From Deltaproteobacteria bacterium (GTDB lineage Bacteria; Desulfobacterota; DSM-4660; Desulfatiglandales; HGW-15): a stretch of DNA of 55,048 nt. Where the stretch lies: positions 1 through 55,048 of the forward strand of contig JAFGGA010000017.1 of the NCBI GenBank assembly GCA_016930835.1, given 5' to 3'. Shown here piece by piece: positions 32,879 through 44,133 of this stretch (the first letter of the stretch is position 1; each line of letters begins with the position of its first letter). The notes under the pieces were generated by a model. The model did no database searches. It was not told where the DNA came from and saw nothing but the letters and a program-made list of their open reading frames with translations. The translations under genes were made by a program, and so were the position numbers.

Positions 32879-34282
32879 TCAAGAATAAAATTCTAAAGGA
32901 TTGTCCCACCACCCAATAATGGACCCATACCTTTTGAAATGAAAGTTTTCCCGCTTTTCGACCTCCCGTATCCAATCCCCTAAAGCGGAAGCATGGTGAA
33001 TAATGAGGGGCGTGCTGTGTGGCGGGAGGATATCTCTTGAAAGACCGTAAATGGATATGTTTTTTTGAGTGTTGACATACGTCTCATGGGTGTCCCACGG
33101 TGTAGGATGGATAAATCCATGAATAGCGCCCTCTTCCCTGGAATAATGCCATACATCAGGGAATGACTCTTTTAACCGGCGCATAAGTTGTATAGCCCGG
33201 ATATTCGTATCAACGGTCAATCCTTTGTGAAAATTCCTCAAAAGCCGATCATCAAAGGCCTCAAAACCAACAGAAGAAGCAAGGATGCTTATCCCCATTT
33301 CCTGCGCCGACTTCAAGGCATCTCTCAATCTTTCCTCGCCGCCTATCAGCCAATCAGCACGAAGAATGAGATTAATCCGGGATAATAAGAGATCATCATT
33401 GTTGACTCTCTCAAGCAGTCGCGGCAGTCCATGAAGCGGGTTTTCATTGATCAGTTCAAAGGCGATCTTGCGACCATCCTCATCACCCGGCAGACATCGA
33501 ATCTGGTCCAAGACCGTCTCCATGTCCAATTCTCCGTAAAACCCTTTATCCGATGCCACATCACAGAAACTACACCCTCTTAAACTGATTTCTACCCGCC
33601 GTCCCTCCCAATCGTTGATGGAAACCGGATAGTCTATGGCCACCCTATTTTCGTGTCCTGCGTAAGGGCAACCAATCTGTTGCAGTACTTGTCCGGTCGA
33701 AATATTGAGGCGTTGTAGTCCGTTTTCTCCAACCCGATATAAATTATCCCAACGAACGGAATGCAAATAGGTTTCATCCCATGCCTTTTCTTCAGCCTGA
33801 ATCACCCGATTAAGGTTATCAGCGAAGAGCAATCCGTAAGCATTGCGCCACTCCTTTTTCTCCAATAGATCAAAAACACCCATGGCCTGTTCCGCCGGTC
33901 CGTGCACGGCGAATGAAAAACAATCGGCCAGACCATGGAATCGATATGGATACCTTTCCCACTCAACCTCTCCAACAAAGTCACGGTCCGCCTGAGGACC
34001 CGCGAGGATCGTGGTTGCCCCTTCTTCCTTGAGTTCCCTGGCAAGTGAAAAAAGGTCTTCACGGCCGCTCAGGGTAGAAAAACCAATGATGGGTCTTTGG
34101 TTGTGAAAATAATCCGCCAGGGCCTTTTTGATAGCCAACTTGTCATCGTCGCGGGTCACTGCGATGACGATACATTCAAATGCCGTATGGCCTTGTATAA
34201 TGGTGGCGGCCATTTGAGGACCCAGCATCCCATAGGTTTCACCAGCAAAATAGCTTGTGATAATGGCCATGCGTTTCTTCAT
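32879..34282 (-). CDS. Radical-SAM-like protein with atypical cysteine motif
   Basis: 467 residues. The N terminus (about 1-140) looks like a cobalamin-binding-type Rossmann domain (ITSYFAGETYGMLGPQMAATI, IIGFSTLSGREDLFSLARELKEEGATTILAGPQADRD), though no clear DxHxxG is seen. The centre reads VEISLRGCSFCDVASDKGFYG (230-250), where classic proteins have C-x3-C-x2-C; here only Cys237-x2-Cys240 is present, with another cysteine at 205 (IGCPYAGH). Downstream elements (INENPLHGLPRLLERV, LRADWLIGGEERLRDALKSAQEMGISILASSVGFEAFDD) fit a radical-SAM TIM barrel. The substrate is unknown. It is 49 bases upstream of the Lrp-type regulator, same strand. Confidence 0.75.
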   Translation of the reverse strand: MKKRMAIITSYFAGETYGMLGPQMAATIIQGHTAFECIVIAVTRDDDKLAIKKALADYFHNQRPIIGFSTLSGREDLFSLARELKEEGATTILAGPQADRDFVGEVEWERYPYRFHGLADCFSFAVHGPAEQAMGVFDLLEKKEWRNAYGLLFADNLNRVIQAEEKAWDETYLHSVRWDNLYRVGENGLQRLNISTGQVLQQIGCPYAGHENRVAIDYPVSINDWEGRRVEISLRGCSFCDVASDKGFYGELDMETVLDQIRCLPGDEDGRKIAFELINENPLHGLPRLLERVNNDDLLLSRINLILRADWLIGGEERLRDALKSAQEMGISILASSVGFEAFDDRLLRNFHKGLTVDTNIRAIQLMRRLKESFPDVWHYSREEGAIHGFIHPTPWDTHETYVNTQKNISIYGLSRDILPPHSTPLIIHHASALGDWIREVEKRENFHFKRYGSIIGWWDNPLEFYS

Positions 34283-34578: not shown

Positions 34579-35319
34579 ATGTTGACGGTCGATGAACGAA
34601 AAAGATACGATAGGCAGATCATGATGCCTGAAGTCGGGGAAGAAGGACAGGAAAAACTCAAACAGGCCAAGGTGCTCATCGCAGGGGCTGGCGGGCTGGG
34701 CTCACCCATATCCATCTATCTTGCCGCAGCCGGTATCGGTCATATCCGTTTGGTGGATCATGATCAAATCGAATTAACCAATCTAAACCGGCAGGTCCTT
34801 CATTGGAACAGGGATATCGGTGAATTCAAGGTAAAATCGGCCCTAAACAAACTCAATCAATTGAACCCCGATGTGGCCATTGAAATCATCAAAAAAACTA
34901 TCGAAGAAGGCAATATCCGGGATATCGTAAACGATTGTGATGCCATCGTGGATGCCATGGATAATCTGGAAACCAGATACCTTTTAAATAAGATCGCCAT
35001 TGAAAAAAACATCCCCTTCTTTCACGGTGCGGTTCGCGGCCTGGAAGGACGTGCCATGACCATCATCCCTGGCAAATCACCCTGTTTGAGATGCATGTAT
35101 CACGGCACACTTCCGCCAGAGAAATTCCCGGTGATCGGTGTGGCCCCGGGTGTCATCGGTTGTATTCAAGCCACGGAAGTGATCAAATATTTTGTTGGGA
35201 TGGGTGAATTGTTGACCGGTCGATTGTTGGTCTATGACGGTATGAGCCTGACGTTCAGGGAATTCAAGATTACCAGAAATCCCCAATGCGATCATTGCGG
35301 CCAGAGGAAAGAGGTTTAG
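34579..35319 (+). CDS. ThiF/MoeB/HesA-family adenylyltransferase
   Basis: 246 residues of the E1-like superfamily. It adenylates the C-terminal glycine of a ubiquitin-like sulfur carrier. Motifs: RYDRQIMMPEVGEEGQEKL, the nucleotide-binding VLIAGAGGLGSPISIYLAAAGIG (about 32-54), VDHDQIELTNLNRQVL, and zinc-binding CxxC pairs in CLRCMYHG and NPQCDHCGQ. The next gene, 13 bases downstream, encodes the likely carrier. Being beside an AOR operon, the pair probably makes dithiolene sulfur for molybdopterin/tungstopterin. Confidence 0.9.
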   Translation: MLTVDERKRYDRQIMMPEVGEEGQEKLKQAKVLIAGAGGLGSPISIYLAAAGIGHIRLVDHDQIELTNLNRQVLHWNRDIGEFKVKSALNKLNQLNPDVAIEIIKKTIEEGNIRDIVNDCDAIVDAMDNLETRYLLNKIAIEKNIPFFHGAVRGLEGRAMTIIPGKSPCLRCMYHGTLPPEKFPVIGVAPGVIGCIQATEVIKYFVGMGELLTGRLLVYDGMSLTFREFKITRNPQCDHCGQRKEV

Positions 35320-35332
35320 AAAGGAGATCCAC

Positions 35333-35605
35333 ATGACCATAAAAATCAACCTACATAAAACCCATCGACAATATACCAATGATCAAGAAACCGTCGAGGT
35401 CCAAGGGAAGAATGTCGGAGAATGTCTGAAGGACTTAATCCGGCAATACCCGCCCCTGGGGAAAGAGATATTTACAAAAAACGGAAAACTAAGTCCCATT
35501 ATGGAAGTCTATTTAAACGGAAAAAGCGCGTTTCCGGATGAACTGAACAAGCCGGTGAAGGATGGAGATACGATCCATCTGGTCTATTTTTTGGCGGGTG
35601 GTTAG
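35333..35605 (+). CDS. MoaD/ThiS-family sulfur carrier protein
   Basis: 90 residues, beta-grasp fold, ending VYFLAGG; the C-terminal Gly-Gly is the site adenylated and thiocarboxylated by the adjacent ThiF-like protein. The segment VGECLKDLIRQYPPLGKEIF and NGKSAFPDELNKPVKDGDTIHLV match MoaD. An AAAGGAGAT ribosome binding site precedes the ATG. It most likely supplies sulfur for the pterin cofactor of AOR; thiamine synthesis is the alternative. It ends 5 bases from the convergent EutA-like gene. Confidence 0.88.
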   Translation: MTIKINLHKTHRQYTNDQETVEVQGKNVGECLKDLIRQYPPLGKEIFTKNGKLSPIMEVYLNGKSAFPDELNKPVKDGDTIHLVYFLAGG

Positions 35606-35609
35606 GCTC

Positions 35610-37046
35610 CTAATGATTATTCACTGGGAAAACAAGCGACTTGACCGTCACGGGGAATACTTGGCCTTTGACCAATGGCTCACCGATATCAATCCAATCT
35701 CCATCGTCCAATGATAACTCATCCAATGACAATAGGTTCGTGTTCAAACGCGTCTCTCTTCGGATGACATTTCCTACACTACAAGCGATATCCTTTTCAA
35801 AAATGAGAATCACGGGCTTCTGATGGGCAATGGAGTTGGGCAGGGCGGTTTCAATGGATTTCGCAAACAATTCCAGGGCGGGATAATTAACCTTAACAGG
35901 GTCCTTAAAAAACAGGGCAACCATTTCCCGGCCCTCAACAAAATCGAACCTTTGATACGCCGACTTGACTTGTGAGACCACATGCTCGATACTGAGTTTT
36001 GGTTCTTCTACGTCAACCCGAAGCACGGGGATATTTCTGATGGGAAAGGAGAGATGATCATCCATGAAGCCTGATGAGCCCGAGATGGACAAGGAATAAG
36101 CCCCTGCCCCGATAACGGTCGCCCTGATCTTATTAAGTGGCTCCACAATGGGTGCCTTCAGCCGATCGGTTAAAGCTCGAATCTTGTTTGAAAGGATTTC
36201 CCCGATATCATCATACTCACCCGAACCACCGTAGAGAAACTCCGACACACCTCCGGAAAACATATACTCATTGATCCCATGGGTAAAATCCAGATCGTCC
36301 GTAACCATCAATTCTTTTGCCAAAGGAGATCTCGCCGGACCCGTCATCACCTCTATCAATACCTCCGCCAAAACAGACGCAATGGCTTCCAGATCCTCTT
36401 TCAGGATGCGATCTCCTATCTTGTAATCCAATCCGAGATGCTTCATCACCTTAAAGGCTGGTTTGGTAAGCCTATTGATAACGCCTTGCTTATCCATGAA
36501 CAGCAAACGCCCACCCACGGAAACGCAACTCGTTGAAACCACTTCTCCATTTTTGGATATAGCGAGGTTGGACGTGCCCCCTCCAATATCACATGACAAG
36601 ATGGTTTTATGGTGTTCTTTAGACCGGGCATTGGCCCCGGATCCCATGGCGGCGAGGAGACTCTCAAAATTGGGGCCGGCGGTTGCGGCCACAAGTTTGC
36701 CCGCATCATTAGATAGGGCTTCAGCTATTTGGGGGGCGTTGTGCTTCTTGGCCGTCTCTCCCGTTACAATCACGGCGCCGGTGTGGATATCTGCAGGATC
36801 AATTCCCGCGAGCTTAAATTCTTCCTTAAAAAAGGTCGTTAATGAATCAATATCAATGGTATTATCGTTTAATAAAGGCGTATTGATGATCTTTCCCTCA
36901 TAGATGATACTCCTTTCTTCAATGACAAATCGTTGGGTCGGCGAATGTTCATCTCTGATCAAAACGAGTTTTGAAAAGACCAAATGGCTTGTTGAACTGC
37001 CGACATCAATACCAATTGATAATAATTCGACCCTGTTGATTTCCAT
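35610..37046 (-). CDS. EutA-like reactivating ATPase (ethanolamine ammonia-lyase reactivase family)
   Basis: 478 residues, typical EutA length. It is an actin/Hsp70-like ATPase: phosphate-1 motif SIGIDVGSSTSHLVFSKL (about 10-27), HTGAVIVTGETAKKHNAPQIAEALS, phosphate-2 SCDIGGGTSNLAI (about 150-162), and ATVIGAGAYSLSISGSSGF near 310. EutA expels damaged cobalamin from ethanolamine ammonia-lyase (EutBC). No eutBC or microcompartment gene is in this window, so it is an orphan. It lies downstream of the AOR operon, 24 bases past a hairpin. Acetaldehyde, the EutBC product, is a classic AOR substrate, which could explain the linkage. Confidence 0.85.
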   Translation of the reverse strand: MEINRVELLSIGIDVGSSTSHLVFSKLVLIRDEHSPTQRFVIEERSIIYEGKIINTPLLNDNTIDIDSLTTFFKEEFKLAGIDPADIHTGAVIVTGETAKKHNAPQIAEALSNDAGKLVAATAGPNFESLLAAMGSGANARSKEHHKTILSCDIGGGTSNLAISKNGEVVSTSCVSVGGRLLFMDKQGVINRLTKPAFKVMKHLGLDYKIGDRILKEDLEAIASVLAEVLIEVMTGPARSPLAKELMVTDDLDFTHGINEYMFSGGVSEFLYGGSGEYDDIGEILSNKIRALTDRLKAPIVEPLNKIRATVIGAGAYSLSISGSSGFMDDHLSFPIRNIPVLRVDVEEPKLSIEHVVSQVKSAYQRFDFVEGREMVALFFKDPVKVNYPALELFAKSIETALPNSIAHQKPVILIFEKDIACSVGNVIRRETRLNTNLLSLDELSLDDGDWIDIGEPLVKGQVFPVTVKSLVFPVNNH

Positions 37047-37069
37047 GCCTGTTTCTCAGATACACATAA

Positions 37070-37099
37070 AAGAGGCCCTCGGGAAACCGAAGGCCTCTT
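37070..37099 (-). terminator. Hairpin between the AOR-operon ferredoxin and the EutA-like gene
   Basis: AAGAGGCC (37070-37077) pairs with GGCCTCTT (37092-37099); inside, TCGG and CCGA pair around a GAAA tetraloop. On the minus strand it is followed by TTTT. It could end the AOR transcript or attenuate it, because the EutA-like start is only 24 bases further on. Confidence 0.65.
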
Positions 37100-37152
37100 A
37101 TTAGATGTTTGATCTTTTATCCCCCCATCAAGGGCGGGGAATGTAGACGCAA

Positions 37153-37650
37153 TTATAATTCAGCCAATAAAACGCCGGCTTCTCTACCCGCCTTGGACAA
37201 TCGACCGGCCGCATCCCGTTTTTTGCCAATGCTGATTTCATCAGGAGACACAAATTCCAAAGCATTCACATCGCAAAAACGAACACACTGAGGATCTCCG
37301 TCACAAAGATCGCACTTAATCACTTTTTTGTCAATCACATTAAAATTCATGGCGCCAAATGGGCAAACGGCCACACAGGACCGGCATCCAATACACACAT
37401 CATAATCCACCACGACCCGCCCCAATTCTTCATCCCGGGAAATGGCCTTGACCGGGCACACATTTAAGCACGGGGCGTCCTGGCATTGCTGGCAGGACAT
37501 GGGGATATAAAGGCCCTCCGCCTCCCACTTCATGACCTTTATCCGGCTCCTTGTGGGATTGGAGATCCCGTCGTGTTTGACGGCACAAACAAGTTCGCAC
37601 AGTCGACAACCTGTACACTTCTGATAGTCAATATATAGGGCTTTAGCCAT
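37153..37650 (-). CDS. Four-cluster ferredoxin subunit associated with AOR (DmsB/HycB type)
   Basis: 165 residues with four cysteine groups: CTGCRLCELVC (about 13-23), CQQCQDAPCLNVCP (about 53-66), CIGCRSCVAVCP (about 86-97) and CDLCDGDPQCVRFC (about 114-127), the pattern of electron-transfer subunits in Mo/W oxidoreductases. It begins 31 bases after the AOR stop and is probably the direct electron acceptor. A clear paralogue is encoded at 43374-43862. Confidence 0.92.
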   Translation of the reverse strand: MAKALYIDYQKCTGCRLCELVCAVKHDGISNPTRSRIKVMKWEAEGLYIPMSCQQCQDAPCLNVCPVKAISRDEELGRVVVDYDVCIGCRSCVAVCPFGAMNFNVIDKKVIKCDLCDGDPQCVRFCDVNALEFVSPDEISIGKKRDAAGRLSKAGREAGVLLAEL

Positions 37651-37680
37651 TTTTATTCTCTCCTCTCGCTTTTAAGACAT

Positions 37681-39621
37681 TTACACAAGGTGTGACGGCT
37701 CATTCTCTATATCGAGTTCTTTGAGCGTTTCAGGTTTGGGATTTCCATCCTTGTCAAGGCCTTTATGTTCATAAAATTCATCAATCATCTTGATGAATTT
37801 ATCTTTCTCAATCACTCGACCCACAACTTCCGGGGCGCCTCTTCTTGTCGGTTCGTCAAAATATCGATGATTGAGCATATCACCTTTTTCAAGATCATTT
37901 CTGGTTAGTCCTTCCCTGAGATTGAAAAGCCTTTCAATCATATTGCACCTTCGTGCCACCATCCATATCTCTTCCGGTGTCATATCAAGGCCGGTATTGT
38001 AATAAAGCACCTTGGGCCAATCCTCGAAATTCGGCAATGTGGCCCCAAGGAATGTCGTGTGGTATTTACAAATTCCCAGACAATCGACTGCCATATAACA
38101 GTTCTCTTGCCAAAATACCTGCCACGGCTTTCCGATGTATTCCGTATGTTCCGAACTTAATGGCCCATCATAAGGAATAGGTGTACTGTATATCCTTCTA
38201 AGAACATCTTGAGGCAGATGGTAAAGATCGATCGCAGGCCGGCTTCTTAAATGATCAGAACCACGAGAGCCGGTTGCGATATTCAATGCCAGTGCCGGGG
38301 TAGCCCTTTCATCGGAGTGAAGATTAGACATCCCTTTCACCTGGATGAGGTATTGAAAGGAATCCTTGCCGAATACTTTGGAGGCCTGGATACCTCCTTT
38401 GGCAAGAGTGTCACCAACAAAACCCTTTCGATAGCAGATGCGATCGATCATCTCGATAACGGCTTCATCGTTTCCAAATGAAAGGTCCAAACCATCCGTA
38501 TCCTTCTTGGTAAGGATGCCCTTTTCATACAATTCCATGGCCCAGGCGATGAGGCTTCCGGTTTCAAGGTTGTCCATGCCATATTGGTCCACCAGATGGT
38601 TACCCACCAGAACCGTATTGGCACGGGGCGTGTCGGTTTCGCCGCCAAAGGCGCCTTGAGACGTGTACTCGGGCCCTTCATCATACCGCCCGGCATAGGG
38701 GCCTTCAGTAATCTTATACTGGGCACGGCAATGTACCTGACAACCAAAACAGCCCGTCATGTGATAAGGTCCCATGGTCTCTTCACAGATTTCATCAATA
38801 CGCTCAGGCTCGATATCATCCGCGTATTCACACTGATTGTACTGAAAATTCCTGCACCGAATACCGCCCCACGAGTTGGTGGCACCCCAGATGAAGGGTG
38901 TACCCAAAGTTCCCTGGGTCTGGTTAACCTTTGCACTGATAATTTGGTCGATAAAGCGCTTATTGTATTCAAGCGCTTCAACTGGATGAGCGATCTTGAT
39001 ATCCATGGTTCCCCTGGCGGCAACCGCCTTTAGGTTTTTGGATCCCATCACGCATCCCATACCGCTTCGACCACCTGAATTTTTGATCCCCGTCATCACG
39101 TTGGCATACGCGACCAGATTCTCACCCGCCGGCCCGCAGACCATGCTTTTAACCTCCTGATCGCCAAGATCATCGCGAATCGCCCATTGGGCATCGGTTA
39201 CCGGCAGGCCCCAGATGCCTTCCGCATCGCGGATCTCGATTTCACCGTTATGGATATAGATATAAACGGGATGCTTGGCCTTTCCTTTGATGACCAGATG
39301 GTGAAAACCGGCCCACGCCATCTCCGGGGCGAAAAACCCGCCCATATTGGCGCTACCCAAAAGTCCGGTCAAAGGCGATTTGGCCATCACATGGGTTCGA
39401 GCGGTCGCGGAAGCGCAGGTTGCTGTCAGTATTCCCCCGCTCACCATAAGCGTATTGTCGGGGCCTATGGGATCGCATCCCTTCTTGGTATGATTATACA
39501 GGAGGTAGGCATCCAATCCCCTTCCGCCTAAAAACTTTTTTCTAACCTCGATTGGGATGGGTTTGACCTCAATATCACCTGTTGTCAGGTCTATATAAGC
39601 GATTTTTCTCTTTAAAGGCAT
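37681..39621 (-). CDS. Aldehyde:ferredoxin oxidoreductase, tungsten-dependent
   Basis: 646 residues. It oxidises aldehydes to carboxylic acids with a W-bis-pyranopterin centre and one [4Fe-4S] cluster. The N terminus has FLGGRGLDAYLLYNH (30-44) and SANMGGFFAPEMAWAGFHHLVIKGKA. The cluster ligands are Cys291, Cys294, Cys298 (CFGCQVHC) and a distant cysteine, Cys518, in DCLGICKY. GPEYTSQGAFG near 317 and GSDHLRSRPA near 454 lie at the active site. AAGGAGGAAAAG precedes the ATG. It is the core of the operon, flanked by a zinc ribbon protein upstream and a four-cluster ferredoxin downstream. Confidence 0.95.
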   Translation of the reverse strand: MPLKRKIAYIDLTTGDIEVKPIPIEVRKKFLGGRGLDAYLLYNHTKKGCDPIGPDNTLMVSGGILTATCASATARTHVMAKSPLTGLLGSANMGGFFAPEMAWAGFHHLVIKGKAKHPVYIYIHNGEIEIRDAEGIWGLPVTDAQWAIRDDLGDQEVKSMVCGPAGENLVAYANVMTGIKNSGGRSGMGCVMGSKNLKAVAARGTMDIKIAHPVEALEYNKRFIDQIISAKVNQTQGTLGTPFIWGATNSWGGIRCRNFQYNQCEYADDIEPERIDEICEETMGPYHMTGCFGCQVHCRAQYKITEGPYAGRYDEGPEYTSQGAFGGETDTPRANTVLVGNHLVDQYGMDNLETGSLIAWAMELYEKGILTKKDTDGLDLSFGNDEAVIEMIDRICYRKGFVGDTLAKGGIQASKVFGKDSFQYLIQVKGMSNLHSDERATPALALNIATGSRGSDHLRSRPAIDLYHLPQDVLRRIYSTPIPYDGPLSSEHTEYIGKPWQVFWQENCYMAVDCLGICKYHTTFLGATLPNFEDWPKVLYYNTGLDMTPEEIWMVARRCNMIERLFNLREGLTRNDLEKGDMLNHRYFDEPTRRGAPEVVGRVIEKDKFIKMIDEFYEHKGLDKDGNPKPETLKELDIENEPSHLV

Positions 39622-39622
39622 C

Positions 39623-39901
39623 TTACTTTTCCTCCTTCGCTTTATCCTTCAATTTTTTTTCCAAAACGTCTTGGGCGATTTTTCTATTGACGTCCCATAC
39701 CGGCCCACGGATCCTGGGAAATCCATCCTTCACCCATGCCACGCGGAATTCCATTCCACATGTAGGACATTTGATGGTCTTGTCTCCCTTTTTGGGTTCA
39801 AGCCTTTCCATGCATGTGGGATTATGGCATCTAAACTTCCCATATGTCCTGGTCTTGCGTAGACTCTCCGCTGTTGATATTCCATCTTTTTCGGTTGTCA
39901 T
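39623..39901 (-). CDS. Small zinc-ribbon protein of the AOR operon
   Basis: 92 residues from ATG 39901, chosen because GGAG lies a few bases upstream; a frame beginning at 39931 overlaps the upstream gene. One ribbon: RCHNPTCMERLEPKKGDKTIKCPTCGMEFRVAW (Cys-x4-Cys ... Cys-x2-Cys, about residues 25-55), with charged helical tails. It ends 1 base before AOR. The function is unknown; an assembly factor or small subunit for AOR would fit its position. Confidence 0.75.
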   Translation of the reverse strand: MTTEKDGISTAESLRKTRTYGKFRCHNPTCMERLEPKKGDKTIKCPTCGMEFRVAWVKDGFPRIRGPVWDVNRKIAQDVLEKKLKDKAKEEK

Positions 39902-39927
39902 TTTTACACTCCTTTCTCCTAAAAAAA

Positions 39928-40935
39928 TCAAGCAGACTGTGATTTCAATGTCCTATGCCAAGGGGATATCTTTTTTAAATAATCCCCACGACTCTCTTTC
40001 CTACAATTGGAACAAAGCCCCAAATACTCATGGGCATATGTTTTATGGATCTTATCCATGAGGGGTTCAGGCACATACAGGGCCCCACACTTTTGACATG
40101 ATTCCATTTCAACGGACCGGATTTCTTGTTTCTTCATTGCCTGTGCAAACCGTTTAAGACTAATCTCGTGTCTCAATTCAGCAGCATTTTCAGGACATGT
40201 AAATACACAAGAAGCACAACATATACATTGATAATGGGAATAGTAAAATGTCCTCACATGTCCGCTATCTTTGGATTCCAGGGTCCCGGTCGGGCAGCTT
40301 AATACACAAGAAGCGCAACCCGTGCACGTCCGGATATTCATACGTGTCCTGCAAAAAAGAAATATCGTGGCGACAATCATGAGTTCCCCGCTCACGATAT
40401 GCATGGTCCATATCTTATCCGAAAAAAAGGATATGCCATCCAAAGTCCCGTGAGCCAAAAAATAGCCTGATAAAAAAGGTAAGGCCGCTATAATGATGAT
40501 AACATAATCAGCTATGGAAGTATTCTGGCGATTTTTTTTGATGACCACACGCCTGACAATAAAAAACAGGGCCAGACCCAATACAATAAGTGTCATCCAA
40601 TCCGACCATTCATCAGGTAGGGATACCCAATGCCATTCGAGACTGGATTCTTCCCATAATGAAACATGCCCGGCCAGCCATATGGGAACCACAAACAAGC
40701 AAAAATGGAATATGTATCGGAGAGTCGCATATAGAGGTTTTTTGGGAACGGCACTATGAAAAGGGATAAAAACCCGCATCAGATTAATCAAAAAATATGG
40801 AACTTTTTTTTCAACGCTCCGGCTTCCCTTGACAAGAGAAGTGATAAAAAAAACAATCCTGACAATAATTCCAATGCAAAAGGCCAAAAAGACAACCTTT
40901 AATAAAGGTCCTTCAACAAAAGAACCAAAATACAT
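39928..40935 (-). CDS. Membrane cytochrome-b-like protein with two [4Fe-4S] clusters and a C-terminal zinc ribbon
   Basis: 335 residues. About five membrane helices (near 10-35, 72-95, 112-130, 142-162, 177-197) carry histidines (His60, His77, His90, His162, His179) in the style of NarI/DsrM/HdrE b-type cytochromes. A cytoplasmic 2[4Fe-4S] domain follows: Cys204/207/210/214 and Cys237/240/243/247. The end carries CQKCG...CSNC, a zinc ribbon shared with the protein at 42753-43157. As first gene of the AOR operon it probably moves aldehyde electrons between ferredoxin and the menaquinone pool. GAGGAG precedes the ATG. Heme binding is inferred. Confidence 0.85.
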   Translation of the reverse strand: MYFGSFVEGPLLKVVFLAFCIGIIVRIVFFITSLVKGSRSVEKKVPYFLINLMRVFIPFHSAVPKKPLYATLRYIFHFCLFVVPIWLAGHVSLWEESSLEWHWVSLPDEWSDWMTLIVLGLALFFIVRRVVIKKNRQNTSIADYVIIIIAALPFLSGYFLAHGTLDGISFFSDKIWTMHIVSGELMIVATIFLFCRTRMNIRTCTGCASCVLSCPTGTLESKDSGHVRTFYYSHYQCICCASCVFTCPENAAELRHEISLKRFAQAMKKQEIRSVEMESCQKCGALYVPEPLMDKIHKTYAHEYLGLCSNCRKESRGDYLKKISPWHRTLKSQSA

Positions 40936-41066
40936 GCTGTCTACTCCTCAAATTTTAAACGTTATGGGACAAAATCATCGTTAAAAAAGCTGAATAGGAT
41001 CATTGGGTCAGTCCGATAAATGGTATTACATATCAGGATCACGCTATAAAGTATTTGTTTTATTAT

Positions 41067-41082
41067 GTTCATGATTATGAAC
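41067..41082. promoter_or_regulatory. IclR-type operator candidate 1
   Basis: GTTCATGATTATGAAC, a perfect 6+6 palindrome around GATT, lies 132 bases upstream of the AOR operon start and 154 bases upstream of the iclR-type start. The same 16-bp pattern recurs near 43.9 and 44.1 kb. Confidence 0.65.
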
Positions 41083-41116
41083 TTGCGTTATTTTAAAAAA
41101 TATCATATATAACTTT

Positions 41117-41168
41117 TATGTCAAGGAAAAAAACAGTATTATTAGATACTTATGTCAACATTGACATA
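41117..41168. promoter_or_regulatory. TATGTCAA operator-like repeats
   Basis: TATGTCAACATTGACATA (41151-41168) is a perfect 8+8 palindrome with a 2-base centre. A third TATGTCAA half-site lies at 41117-41124. The sequence differs from the GTTCAT family, so a second regulator or the divergent promoter's own element is likely. Confidence 0.5.
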
Positions 41169-41218
41169 TACGAAAACATTTGACAAGGCATGGATTGTGA
41201 AGGTAAATGACTAGATAT

Positions 41219-41234
41219 GTTCATTATGGAGAAC
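41219..41234. promoter_or_regulatory. IclR-type operator candidate 2 over the iclR ribosome binding site
   Basis: GTTCATTATGGAGAAC keeps the left half-site GTTCAT and the right GAAC of the 16-bp pattern and includes GGAG, the ribosome binding site of the IclR-family gene that starts at 41236. It would suit autoregulation. It is a weaker match than candidate 1. Confidence 0.45.
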
Positions 41235-41235
41235 A

Positions 41236-42036
41236 ATGACCGCTAAATATCAAGCACCCGCTGTTAAAAAAGCGTTTCAGATCCTCAAGCTCATTTCAAA
41301 CACCAACCAAGGACTGGGGATCAGTGAACTGGCCAAGACCTTAGGGATAAGCAAAGGCACTGTCCATGGTGTCACATCCATCCTGGAAGAATTGGGGATG
41401 ATTACAAGAGATCCCGCCACGAAAAAGTATGAATTGGGTCTGACGCTTTTTGAACTGGGCCGACACGCTTATTCACAGATCGACCTAAGGGAGATTGCTA
41501 GGCCCATCATAGAAAACCTTATGGAAAAGATCCAAGAAACGGTCTTTTTGGGCGTCCTTAACGGGGATCATGTGACCATACTGGACAATGTGGAATGTAG
41601 ACACGATTTTAAGATCACATCCCCCATCGGGGCTACCATTCCCCTTTTTGCCAGCGCCACTGGTAAGGCCCTTCTGGCTGTTATGGAAGAGGAAATTGCA
41701 AGGGAGATTATTCGGACAAGAGGCCTCCCGCGGTACACGGATAGGTCCATTACAGATCCCGATCAATTTCTCGCGGAGATTAGAATGGCCAGACAAAGGG
41801 GTTATGCCACGGATTATGAGGAATACATCGCCGGCGTCAGGGCCGTGGCCGCTCCCATTGATGAAAATAGAAATCGATTATCCGCCATATGGGTGGTGGG
41901 ATTTAAGGCCAGCCTGGATGATAGTAAAATGAAAGCCTTGGAAAAAGAGATCCGGAAAGCCACGGAAGACATTAATCAAAAACTTCATGAAGCATCTCGC
42001 GAGAAAGTTCATTCTAGATCGGGGGATATCTCTTGA
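41236..42036 (+). CDS. IclR-family transcriptional regulator
   Basis: 266 residues. N-terminal winged helix (about 5-65: APAVKKAFQILKLISNTNQGLGISELAKTLGISKGTVHGVTSILEELGMI) and C-terminal effector domain (about 80-255: IGATIPLFASATGKALLAVM, GYATDYEEYIAGVRAVAAPI). IclR proteins bind short palindromes in DNA and respond to organic acids or aromatics. It is divergent from the AOR operon; palindromes in the shared region and before the second ferredoxin operon suggest it controls both and itself. Confidence 0.93.
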   Translation: MTAKYQAPAVKKAFQILKLISNTNQGLGISELAKTLGISKGTVHGVTSILEELGMITRDPATKKYELGLTLFELGRHAYSQIDLREIARPIIENLMEKIQETVFLGVLNGDHVTILDNVECRHDFKITSPIGATIPLFASATGKALLAVMEEEIAREIIRTRGLPRYTDRSITDPDQFLAEIRMARQRGYATDYEEYIAGVRAVAAPIDENRNRLSAIWVVGFKASLDDSKMKALEKEIRKATEDINQKLHEASREKVHSRSGDIS

Positions 42037-42096
42037 TATGGGGCAACCGAAAACAATTCTGGATCGAAGCATAAAAAGTCTTTTAAAGGCCACTGA

Positions 42097-42756
42097 TTAT
42101 GCTGGGAATACCATGCTCCTAGGACCCATTCCCCGATCCTTTGACCAATCCTTCGGAGGAAGAATCTTTTCATAATCATCCAATCTCCCAAGCGCCTTCA
42201 AGCGATCAATAATCAGTTGCCAGGCACAGTCCACCTCCGGATTAATTTCACACCTCCCGTTTCGTGAGCCTCCGCAAGGCCCATTCATGAGCTTTTTTGC
42301 GCATCGCGTTATGGGGCATATCCCACCGGTATAAAACAAAACACAATGCCCGCAACCCTGACATTTCTCTTTCCAAACCCCTGGAGCTTCCAGCGCACCA
42401 AGAAAGGATGTATTGATAGCCGGAATAATCGGTTTATCTTTTACAACATCCACCATCGTCTGAACACCGGCCCCGCAGGCAAGAGATAATATCGCGTCAA
42501 CATCCTGCGGAATATCCAAATAAGCCCTCATGAGATCCGGCTCACATTGTCTTAAAAAATTTTTCACGATAAATTCCGGCGGTCCGTTTTCATATAATCC
42601 CGCATGCCCCAAATCCAAGGCCAATCCATCCGCGGCCTTTTCACCACCCGTTAGACACACCGACACACACCCGCCACACCCAATAATCAGGACCTTTCGG
42701 AACTCCGAAATGGAATCGGCGATTTCTTCAATCGGTTTTAGAGTTCCTACAATCAT
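42097..42756 (-). CDS. metV: MetV-like C-terminal methylenetetrahydrofolate reductase domain protein
   Basis: 219 residues, the stand-alone MTHFR_C/MetV family: VLIIGCGGCVSVCLTGGEKAA (22-42), LSLACGAGVQTM, and the cysteine-rich end with CQGCGHCVLFYTGGICPITRCAKKLMNGPCGGSRNGRCEI (about 133-172), which binds iron-sulfur/zinc. In anaerobes MetV partners MetF and links ferredoxin or Hdr proteins to the methyl branch of the Wood-Ljungdahl pathway. No metF is nearby. Start overlaps the upstream ferredoxin by 4 bases (ATGA). Confidence 0.88.
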   Translation of the reverse strand: MIVGTLKPIEEIADSISEFRKVLIIGCGGCVSVCLTGGEKAADGLALDLGHAGLYENGPPEFIVKNFLRQCEPDLMRAYLDIPQDVDAILSLACGAGVQTMVDVVKDKPIIPAINTSFLGALEAPGVWKEKCQGCGHCVLFYTGGICPITRCAKKLMNGPCGGSRNGRCEINPEVDCAWQLIIDRLKALGRLDDYEKILPPKDWSKDRGMGPRSMVFPA

Positions 42757-43157
42757 AATTCCACCTCATTCTTTTGGACGGCGACCCCGCTGAGGCGTTT
42801 CCACGTATTTAGAGGCAGCTCTTTTCGATGTTTTGGACATAGGGGTTCTACACCTTTTTTCAGTTTATGGGCGAGTGTTTCGCTGAAATCCATGGTATAA
42901 AGCGGTTCACCGCAAACAGCGCATGATACCAATTCCATGATAGCCACATCATCCCAGGCCCCTTTCAGGAGGTACTGGAATTCAACGGCTTCCTGGGGGC
43001 AGATCCGCCAACAATTACCGCATCGAGCGCACAGGGCCATATTGTGTTTTAAAATGCGTTTTTTGCCTTGATCCTCATAAGCAAGGGCATTGGCCGGACA
43101 ATTTTGTACACAAGCCAAACACCCGTTACATCTATTATTTACCTTAAAAAAAGACAC
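42753..43157 (-). CDS. Ferredoxin (2[4Fe-4S]) with C-terminal zinc ribbon
   Basis: 134 residues from a GTG start at 43157: GGAG sits 6 bases upstream, whereas the in-frame TTG at 43169 overlaps that ribosome binding site. Cluster motifs CNGCLACVQNCP and CARCGNCWRICP lie in the first 60 residues. The C-terminal part has SCAVCGEPL...CPKHRKE, a zinc-ribbon-like element shared with the end of the AOR-operon membrane protein. It is co-transcribed with metV and is probably its electron donor. Confidence 0.85.
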   Translation of the reverse strand: MSFFKVNNRCNGCLACVQNCPANALAYEDQGKKRILKHNMALCARCGNCWRICPQEAVEFQYLLKGAWDDVAIMELVSCAVCGEPLYTMDFSETLAHKLKKGVEPLCPKHRKELPLNTWKRLSGVAVQKNEVEL

Positions 43158-43373
43158 ATTATACTCCAAAAATTAATAAAAAAGATCTACCAAAACAACT
43201 CTTGATGATTTCAAATTCGTTTTTATCCCAGAATATCTGATCCCAGATTCATTTTGTCACCCTTCAGCACTCGCTTTCCGGCAAAGCCTTTTTAAACAAA
43301 CTGATAGCTGAGAGCCGATTGCTGACTGCTGTAATCTCTATCTATAAATGTCTTGTTTATGGTTAGACACTCA

Positions 43374-43862
43374 TCAGTGGGCTAAATGTCTCAGGACACC
43401 ATAGAGTTTTCCCGCTGATTCTTGAGCGCGCGCTGTGTTCAATTGACACGGATTAACATATACCAAGGCCCCCTCTTTGCAGACTCGAACACACGCAGGG
43501 TCACCACCGCAGAGGTCACACTTAAATGCGCGGCCTCTATCCCGATCAAAACCCATAGCCCCCGTAGGACAAGCAGATACACACATCTTACAGCCGATAC
43601 ATCGCTTGGTATCGATCATAACGCGATCCAATTCCTTGTCCCTGTAAATAGCTTCTTCCGGGCAGACAGCCATACAAGGCGGATCCTCACAATGTTGGCA
43701 TGTCGTGGGCAAGCAGAATCCATCGCCTTCCTCTCCACGGATGACGCGAATCCTTGGTTTCTCGGGAGCACCGATTTTTGCATGTGCCAAAGCACAAGCT
43801 GTTTCACAATCACCACAACCCGTGCACTTTAAAGGGTCGATAGAAAGTCTTTTATTGATCAT
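43374..43862 (-). CDS. Four-cluster ferredoxin, paralogue of the AOR-operon ferredoxin
   Basis: 162 residues with four motifs: CTGCGDCETAC, CQHCEDPPCMAVCP, CIGCKMCVSACP and CDLCGGDPACVRVC, in the same order and spacing as the protein at 37153-37650. A GAGGAG ribosome binding site lies 9 bases before ATG. It leads the ferredoxin-metV set, though 216 bases separate it from the next gene. It lacks an adjacent catalytic Mo/W subunit, so it may serve AOR or MetV. Confidence 0.9.
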   Translation of the reverse strand: MINKRLSIDPLKCTGCGDCETACALAHAKIGAPEKPRIRVIRGEEGDGFCLPTTCQHCEDPPCMAVCPEEAIYRDKELDRVMIDTKRCIGCKMCVSACPTGAMGFDRDRGRAFKCDLCGGDPACVRVCKEGALVYVNPCQLNTARAQESAGKLYGVLRHLAH

Positions 43863-43937
43863 ATCTTAAGCTCCTCATATTCATCATTTATATCATTTAA
43901 GTAGGACAATTGGCTAAACCTAAGATCTCATAAAATC

Positions 43938-43953
43938 GTTCATATAAAAGAAC
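43938..43953. promoter_or_regulatory. IclR-type operator candidate 3
   Basis: GTTCATATAAAAGAAC matches GTTCAT-N4-ATGAAC with one mismatch. It lies 76 bases upstream of the four-cluster ferredoxin start. Confidence 0.55.
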
Positions 43954-44101
43954 GTTATTTTTATCAAATTTTAATAATGAAGTCACACATTGTCAACAAT
44001 ATTTTTTGCCAAATCGAATATTTTTAAATTTATTATGTATTTTCAATAGAATATAAGCAATAAATAAATAAATTTTCAAGCAACAAAAAAATTCAATAGA
44101 A

Positions 44102-44133
44102 TATTATTTGTTCATCATAATGAACAAATAATA
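44102..44133. promoter_or_regulatory. IclR-type operator candidate 4, long perfect palindrome
   Basis: Perfect 14-bp arms TATTATTTGTTCAT (44102-44115) and ATGAACAAATAATA (44120-44133) around CATA. Its centre, 44110-44125, is again GTTCAT-N4-ATGAAC. It is 248 bases upstream of the ferredoxin gene and 225 bases upstream of the response regulator gene. Confidence 0.65.

Follow-up and report, generated by a model that had tools for sequence, protein, structure and literature searches.

Proposed exchangeable electron outlets for a tungsten-type aldehyde oxidoreductase, and a shared operator linking it to a MetV operon, in a deltaproteobacterium

One of the closest described counterparts of the system considered here is AorABC of Aromatoleum aromaticum, a nanowire-forming Class III tungsten oxidoreductase (WOR) (PMC10413684). 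The system lies in a 55-kb window, the whole stretch of DNA analysed (positions 1 to 55,048 of contig JAFGGA010000017.1, assembly GCA_016930835.1, from a Deltaproteobacteria bacterium), and comprises two minus-strand operons with the gene for an IclR-family regulator between them. The first operon, in the order MemFd-ZnR-AOR-FdA4-EutA, encodes a tungsten-type aldehyde:ferredoxin oxidoreductase (AOR), and MoeB-like and MoaD-like genes lie beyond it on the plus strand; the second, FdB4-Fd2Zn-MetV, encodes MetV, a component of methylenetetrahydrofolate (methylene-THF) reductases of the MetVF type (MemFd, ZnR, Fd2Zn, FdA4, FdB4, AOR2, and HdrA-like are labels coined in this analysis). The reading favoured here, and considered probable, is that the AOR has interchangeable electron outlets, in this organism the quinone pool and MetV(F), and that one IclR repressor controls both operons as a single regulon.

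Like AorABC, the first operon combines an AOR large subunit with a four-cluster, AorA-like small subunit. It differs in the extra ZnR gene upstream of AOR and in its outlet; an NAD-reducing AorC-like gene was not found in the operon, which instead contains MemFd, while relatives have MetF-Fd2Zn-MetV or Hdr-like genes. Neither WorN (FAD domain) nor WorABC of the Class III/IV WORs is among the genes identified between 34579 and 44133. Tmc and Hmc are membrane complexes of sulfate reducers; the membrane domain of MemFd matches the TmcC and HmcE models, below their cut-offs, but it differs in sharing a polypeptide with a 2[4Fe-4S]-zinc adapter and in having its gene in an operon with AOR. Class V WORs such as E. 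coli YdhYVWXUT share the predicted membrane/quinone outlet, but membership of this class requires a small subunit with a Tat signal, transmembrane segments, or both, and the class occurs in clade 41 only (PMC13328260). FdA4, in contrast, appears to begin at the ferredoxin motif (165 residues, N-terminus MAKALYIDYQKCTGCRLC; judged by eye, a signal would not fit ahead of the first cluster motif), and here a distinct protein, a TmcC-like fusion, supplies the membrane part. MetVF-type methylene-THF reductases II-IV resemble the second operon in MetV and, in relatives, MetF, and type IV joins MetVF to Hdr-like modules (PMC8760232); a four-cluster ferredoxin and Fd2Zn adapter tied to AOR feature in none of the four types listed in the excerpt of that paper. 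MetV, methylenetetrahydrofolate, EutA, and IclR go unmentioned in the main text of the 2026 tungsten oxidoreductase classification (PMC13328260), and the excerpts of PMC6436200, PMC6895022, and PMC1924859, all from the open-access literature, describe no link of AOR with MetV, EutA, or IclR; benzoate-induced genes of Geobacter include an IclR gene and the AOR-like BamB (PMC1924859). No open-access paper treating TmcC, DsrM, and HmcE together was found. The parts of the locus are of known kinds, and the AOR-MetV combination, which an earlier sequence-only reading of this DNA had not recognised as described, was likewise not found in the open-access literature searched.

All genes were found at the positions which that reading had given (Table 1), and its naming of AOR and MetV agrees with Pfam (AFOR_N plus AFOR_C, and DUF5981), as it does with NCBIfam where a model exists; for MetV no NCBIfam model matches. 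The AOR has, besides its two family domains, four invariant cysteines (C291, C294, C298, C518), which we take to be the cluster ligands, as in the Pyrococcus furiosus enzyme. The closest solved structure is 1aor, and identity to ten orthologues is 72-88%; the best NCBIfam match is PRK09849 (YdhV), under its cut-off. Its own genome contains ten AOR matches, and the operon AOR stands separate from the others in the tree. Orthologues at E 1e-250 or better occur in 49 of 148 comparison genomes (given G numbers; individual loci carry L numbers). Those of G005 (contig C281, three in-frame stops) and G007 (C547, two) are broken genes or assembly errors.

Gene neighbourhoods were scanned in 80 AOR loci, the best of 198 relatives found, totalling 1,092,069 bases; they come mostly from 'Deltaproteobacteria' and Desulfobacterota groups, plus Syntrophaceae and two Aminicenantes, and some are the same records as the comparison genomes, so the sets cannot be treated as independent. 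FdA4, whose closest solved relatives are 8c0z_C (AorA of Aromatoleum; E 1.9e-42) and 9mqx_E (E 1.8e-41), is encoded immediately 3' of AOR in 77 of these loci, and the remaining three end at a contig edge. ZnR, a gene left unnamed in the sequence-only reading, lies 5' of AOR in all 72 loci that have more than 350 bp of upstream sequence. Members of its family are 86-102 residues long and share invariant C33, C38, C53, and C56 and the motif PRIRGPVW; Pfam and NCBIfam gave nothing at E 0.001, and the best structural match in a fold search reached E 0.13 only (model pLDDT 76). ZnR probably serves AOR as a subunit or as a maturation factor.

The two operons share paralogous parts, as had been claimed. 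FdA4 and FdB4 are four-cluster ferredoxins of the same design (47% identity across 150 residues), and the C-terminal half of MemFd is homologous to the soluble Fd2Zn (30% over 127 residues, E 1e-13 with composition adjustment off). Across 13 MemFd sequences H60, H77, H90, and H179, eight cluster cysteines, and four zinc cysteines are invariant; the N-terminal half scores 117 bits against NCBIfam TmcC (cut-off 240), with HmcE likewise below cut-off. The start of Fd2Zn is ambiguous (GTG 43157 or TTG 43169). Between FdB4 and Fd2Zn is a gap of about 200 bp (43170-43373) that looks repeat-like by eye; in L157, L158, and L160 the two genes almost touch. The genome encodes five MetV and six MetF proteins. 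In the MetV tree the window protein falls with those of MetF-Fd2Zn-MetV-AOR strings (support 82/84); of the four MetVs of the same genome that adjoin MetF, three cluster together (95/79), and the fourth is long-branched and unplaced. With respect to MetVF-type reductases, then, the window has MetV, and the adjacent MetF is seen in relatives.

The evidence for joint control is a 16-bp palindrome reported in the sequence-only reading ahead of both operons. A repeat search of the window recovers three related sites, and the exact sequence GTTCATNNNNATGAAC has two copies in the whole genome (4,696,344 bases; 95% complete), one per operon, at 41067 and 44110. With up to one mismatch it occurs at 19 genomic places, against 3 for a reversed-pattern control; three are at this locus, and of the 16 elsewhere all seven checked fall within open frames. 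The looser pattern GTTCATNATNATGAAC at up to three mismatches, in the 55-kb window alone, gives 5 sites against 3.7 expected, which is not significant. Both palindromes of the earlier reading are thus real and rare; it had missed an imperfect partner of each, with which every promoter has a pair of boxes, 152 bp apart at the AOR promoter and 172 bp apart at the FdB4 promoter. The distance from the -10 element to the proximal box is 14 nt in both. Promoter-like sites number 15 in the region against 8.2 (sd 3.2) in shuffled sequence, so a single such site says little, and the common 14-nt gap is more telling. The second AOR-side box, given its position, makes autoregulation of IclR possible.

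In relatives the same box recurs. The 80 AOR loci contain 98 boxes at up to one mismatch, against 0, 2, 3, and 1 for four control palindromes, and 46 of the 69 loci that can be evaluated have a box at up to two mismatches within 450 bp upstream of ZnR/AOR. Upstream stretches of ZnR, MemFd, HdrA-like, MetF, and FdB4 genes contain a box in 74 of 101 cases. Among promoter-box pairs from -40 to +80, 27 of 43 place the box 12-16 nt past the -10; a promoter at this distance is found for 6 of 13 MemFd, 4 of 5 HdrA-like, 2 of 6 MetF, and, including the window, 5 of 7 FdB4 genes. The box is also kept where the operons are separate: among eight FdB4-operon promoters on AOR-free stretches of seven genomes (one of which, L156, ends after FdB4, ahead of Fd2Zn and MetV), seven have it at up to two mismatches and four at up to one, and at the same promoters none of 119 permuted palindromes does better than 3 and 0. 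An IclR-family match is present in 57 of the 80 AOR loci, and L072 and L074, whose neighbouring IclR is just 38% identical, have no box. Spacings between proximal and distal boxes (n=63) fall at 151-178 bp in 35 cases and 76-86 bp in 12, and range from 29 to 309 bp; a fixed looping distance was rejected on this spread, and a DNA loop between boxes is only suggested. The divergent neighbours of the FdB4 operon (RecD2, EngA, and CTP synthase by Pfam) were judged housekeeping and set aside as regulon members. A shared palindromic operator at both promoters, similar promoter geometry, and conservation in relatives make a two-operon regulon a well-supported prediction, and this comparison strongly supports the proposal of one IclR regulator for both operons.

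Linkage of AOR to MetV extends beyond the window. In 21 of the 80 loci MetV is found at 0.4-4.6 kb from AOR; 22 loci contain Fd2Zn, 21 of them together with MetV and the remaining one cut by a contig end, and MetF accompanies MetV and Fd2Zn in six. Fd2Zn occurs in 15 of the 148 genomes, and 12 of these have an AOR orthologue against 37 of the 133 others (Fisher p 1.2e-4, a value that overstates independence because the genomes are related, and a count that includes the G005 match with its three in-frame stops). Two Fd2Zn genomes below the AOR cut-off show parts of the cluster at contig ends, FdA4 with EutA in G006 (L189) and IclR-box-MetF-Fd2Zn-MetV-ZnR in G051 (L300); in G071 (L299) an AOR-like gene (46%) and an FdA4-like gene are followed by MetF-Fd2Zn-MetV and the contig end. 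MetF-Fd2Zn-MetV strings occur in eight of the 15 (G031, G039, G047, G051, G057, G068, G071, and G077), and ZnR-AOR follows directly in G031, G047, G057, G068, and G077, which belong to other genera. In the same-family genomes G003, G005, G006, G012, G014, and G015, the stretches that carry FdB4-Fd2Zn-MetV have neither AOR nor MetF, so the adjacency seen in the window is not general in the family. With MemFd as the seed, many genomes showed a group of MemFd, ZnR, AOR, FdA4, and IclR, and none a neighbouring FdB4 operon; the impression that relatives lack the MetV operon was overturned by FdB4, AOR, and Fd2Zn seeds. The gene order proposed from the sequence holds in part, and the comparison with relatives does not refute it: AOR and MetV are recurrently close, in other genera as one string, and the side-by-side arrangement of two operons is not a family trait.

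The module ahead of ZnR-AOR-FdA4, or behind a nearby box promoter, varies and may be MemFd, Hdr-like, HdrB-like, or MetF-Fd2Zn-MetV. Two HdrA-like proteins and one HdrC-like protein take this place in L174, L175, and L178, and a cysteine-rich HdrB-like protein in L135 and L136; in L262 an NrfD gene adjoins a further four-cluster ferredoxin and IclR. Both halves of MemFd are matched at 27 places in 26 of the 148 genomes. MemFd (13 of 80 loci) and MetV (21 of 80) are mostly alternatives at a given locus, both being present solely in L203, and HdrA-like genes occur in five loci. G012, G014, and G015 have MemFd plus the FdB4-Fd2Zn-MetV operon in one genome, like the window.

In the proposed mechanism, the IclR repressor would sit on the operator just past each -10, near the transcription start, would also occupy the second site 152-172 bp away, and would be released by a ligand, perhaps the acid of the aldehyde. 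AOR and FdA4 would form a core as in filament-forming AorAB, from which aldehyde electrons would travel via FdA4 to exchangeable outlets. MemFd is the proposed outlet to the quinone pool, where electrons would pass from the 2[4Fe-4S]-zinc adapter to a b-type-like membrane domain; in FdB4-Fd2Zn-MetV, a like adapter without the membrane domain would deliver them to MetV and on to the flavoprotein MetF, which reduces methylene-THF. As no MetF adjoins the window MetV, it would be supplied from elsewhere in the genome. A split of aldehyde electrons between quinone and one-carbon (C1) reduction is plausible. With the aldehyde/acid potential at about -500 mV (PMC13328260) and methylene-THF reduction at -200 mV (PMC6436200), transfer between them would be downhill and not energy-conserving alone, and may therefore serve aldehyde disposal or methyl supply. 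In Thermacetogenium, AOR and methylene-THF reductase are tied energetically via NADH, with no shared complex (PMC6436200).

Several points weigh against this proposal. Of the 69 AOR promoters that could be evaluated, just 37 have the box at up to one mismatch, in part because ZnR may be preceded by other genes; only 26 of 101 genes have a promoter that matches at least 10/12 and ends 12-16 nt ahead of a box (ZnR, 9 of 70). The box is missing from the second FdB4 operon of G003 (L163) and from the AOR loci L062, L079, and L082. No MetF lies on the window's contig (the six are elsewhere in the genome) or in the FdB4 loci of relatives, and the MetF closest to the AOR-linked ones, the candidate partner (81%, contig C30), adjoins a different MetV and an HdrA-like gene. 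The backbone of the MetV tree lacks resolution, support for the two ferredoxin groups described below is modest (80/96 and 60/91), and the MemFd structure model is poor (pLDDT 49) and was left out of the fold search. Among 43 loci with at least 5 kb of upstream sequence, 16 hold none of MemFd, HdrA-like, MetV, MetF, and AOR2. AOR-to-MetVF transfer would drop about 300 mV with no energy conserved, and we infer IclR binding, repression, and ligand, as well as complex formation, substrate, and direction of flow, from sequence comparison.

In the four-cluster ferredoxin tree, 23 AOR-downstream proteins group with FdA4 and 23 MetV-operon proteins with FdB4, with one change each. A second AOR-like gene, AOR2, is part of the MetV operon in nine of the 80 loci. 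It is intact in L203 (636 residues, cluster cysteines retained), shortened with loss of the CxxCxxxC region in L240, L245, L248, L269, L270, and L278 (L275 is like L269), and broken into frames in L241; the cysteine-less paralogues of these seven shortened loci, about 330-555 residues long, appear to be pseudo-enzymes still in frame. No AOR-like match is found in the window's FdB4 operon or in the FdB4 loci of relatives that were read. Our reading is that the catalytic subunit AOR2 decayed and its ferredoxin was retained, the direction being taken from the otherwise catalytic nature of the family; FdB4 would share its ancestry with the ferredoxin subunit of that second AOR, whose catalytic part decayed in some lineages and is absent from the operon here. 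A bolder version, put forward tentatively as a possibility short of even chances, is that AOR-FdA4 and MetV-MetF make up one electron-wired complex, an aldehyde-driven methylene-THF reductase, whose wire arose from a duplicated AOR and ferredoxin and whose second AOR is now a cofactor-less scaffold. If this is true and formaldehyde is a substrate, the result would be a redox-neutral C1 dismutation, in which one unit becomes formate and one, as methylene-THF, becomes methyl-THF.

Electrons could also flow the opposite way, MetVF oxidizing methyl-THF in a reverse Wood-Ljungdahl pathway and AOR and MetV acting as parallel inputs, via their adapters, to MemFd and menaquinone. Washed membranes of Sporomusa (which has the MetVF-Hdr enzyme), and less so its cytoplasm, reduce a quinone analogue with methyl-THF (PMC9430772), and membrane fractions of Thermacetogenium oxidize methyl-THF with viologen (PMC6436200); the adapter common to MemFd and Fd2Zn and the identical operator on both window operons fit as well. 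We nevertheless consider this unlikely, since MemFd is not found near MetF-Fd2Zn-MetV-ZnR-AOR strings, and the five genomes with that complete string have no match to both MemFd halves; the direct downhill pairing there is aldehyde to methylene-THF. A still less probable explanation is that FdB4-Fd2Zn-MetV is not part of a C1 enzyme and that MetV is a generic Fe-S/zinc connector to another flavoprotein. A single cysteine-rich family could serve several partners, and MetF is absent from the eight FdB4 loci of relatives as from the window's contig, an absence limited at L156 and L157, which stop before or inside MetV, and at L161, which stops shortly after; the grouping of window MetV with MetVs that adjoin MetF and AOR, and the co-occurrence of MetF with MetV and Fd2Zn in six of 80 loci and eight of 15 Fd2Zn genomes (overlapping sets), speak against it. 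That coincidence put the two operons side by side, with the palindrome being some general site rather than a shared IclR operator, is very improbable: although same-family relatives keep the FdB4 operon apart from AOR and 23 of 80 AOR loci (many on short contigs) have no IclR match, the exact box is confined genome-wide to these two promoters, is retained before separate FdB4 operons far more often than permuted controls, and is missing beside the divergent IclR of L072 and L074.

EutA is present in 24 of the 80 AOR loci, and AOR or FdA4 adjoins it at 15 of 19 EutA loci (exceptions L181, L182, L187, and L191). Ethanolamine, which EutA suggested as the aldehyde source, was ruled out, as EutB has no match in this genome. 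Strong EutA matches (E below 1e-120; weaker ones in further genomes were treated as other ATPases) occur in 27 of the 148 genomes and EutB in four, with no overlap, so service to ethanolamine ammonia-lyase is unlikely. The EutA-family ATPase is possibly a reactivase of AOR or of a B12 protein, and its target might equally be the conserved neighbour at 32879-34282. This 467-residue protein, found in 31 of the 80 loci, has a GC[SI]FC-like motif and looks B12-binding or radical-SAM-like by eye; Pfam has no match at E 1e-6, and its CxxxCxxC is unconserved. MoeB/ThiF-like and MoaD/ThiS-like genes occur in 11 and 25 of the 80 loci, and their proximity is only suggestive of a W-bis-pterin cofactor in AOR. 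A second MoaD/ThiS-like protein is encoded within the MetV operon of L203 (3707-3994), L211, L228, and L232. At L250 (3925-7993) the AOR cluster lies beside genes matching, above cut-offs, dearomat_oah and dearomat_had, the models for 6-oxocyclohexenecarbonyl-CoA hydratase and 6-hydroxycyclohexenecarbonyl-CoA dehydrogenase, and similar families are seen in L244 and L262. As a class II benzoyl-CoA reductase the window AOR was rejected (BamB, 4z3w, 207.6 bits against 300 bits for 1aor); in these three lineages a ring-reducing role is conceivable.

Table 1. Features of the AOR and MetV operons and their surroundings in the window
Feature	Position	Strand	Basis
MoeB/ThiF-like adenylyltransferase, pterin-cofactor accessory	34579..35319	+	NCBIfam, under cut-offs of best models
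MoaD/ThiS-like sulfur carrier, pterin-cofactor accessory	35333..35605	+	Pfam ThiS
EutA-like ATPase, ethanolamine ammonia-lyase reactivase family, operon end	35610..37046	-	Pfam EutA, 456.7 bits
FdA4, four-cluster ferredoxin, AOR small subunit (AorA/WorS-like), 16 Cys	37153..37650	-	Solved relatives and position
AOR, tungsten-type aldehyde:ferredoxin oxidoreductase, 646 aa	37681..39621	-	Pfam AFOR_N and AFOR_C
ZnR, zinc-ribbon protein, 102 aa	39623..39931	-	Invariant Cys and constant AOR partner
MemFd, TmcC/HmcE-like membrane domain fused to 2[4Fe-4S] and zinc ribbon	39928..40935	-	NCBIfam, homology
Operator box, exact palindrome, promoter-proximal, AOR operon	41067..41082		Repeat and genome pattern search
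Promoter, sigma-70-like, TTGACA-16-TATTTT, AOR operon	41097..41124	-	Consensus match only, 10/12
Second box, 2 mismatches, distal for AOR promoter	41219..41234		Ends 1 bp ahead of IclR ATG
IclR-family regulator, proposed repressor of both operons	41236..42036	+	Pfam IclR_C, HTH_IclR
MetV (DUF5981)	42097..42756	-	Pfam DUF5981, 132 bits
Fd2Zn, soluble 2[4Fe-4S] and zinc-ribbon adapter	42753..43157	-	Domain searches, homology to MemFd
FdB4, four-cluster ferredoxin of MetV operon	43374..43862	-	Pfam, NCBIfam, cysteine count, tree
Operator box, 1 mismatch, promoter-proximal, FdB4 operon	43938..43953		Pattern search
Promoter, sigma-70-like, TTGACA-17-TAAAAT, FdB4 operon	43968..43996	-	Consensus match only, 11/12
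Operator box, exact palindrome, distal, FdB4 operon	44110..44125		Repeat and genome pattern search

Of 92 tungsten oxidoreductase clades, only five include a member whose role has been defined (PMC13328260), and what donates electrons physiologically to MetVF-type methylene-THF reductases has been posed as an open question (PMC8760232). The proposed AOR-MetV partnership bears on the electron source of folate-reducing enzymes in anaerobes, and the recurring string of MetF, MetV, 2[4Fe-4S]-zinc adapter, AOR, and four-cluster ferredoxin behind one operator offers a concrete pair for testing it. The locus and its relatives would present a single AOR core with swapped outlets, a membrane domain, MetVF, or Hdr-like proteins, together with a visible series in which an AOR paralogue appears to shed its cofactor sites and retain its ferredoxin.

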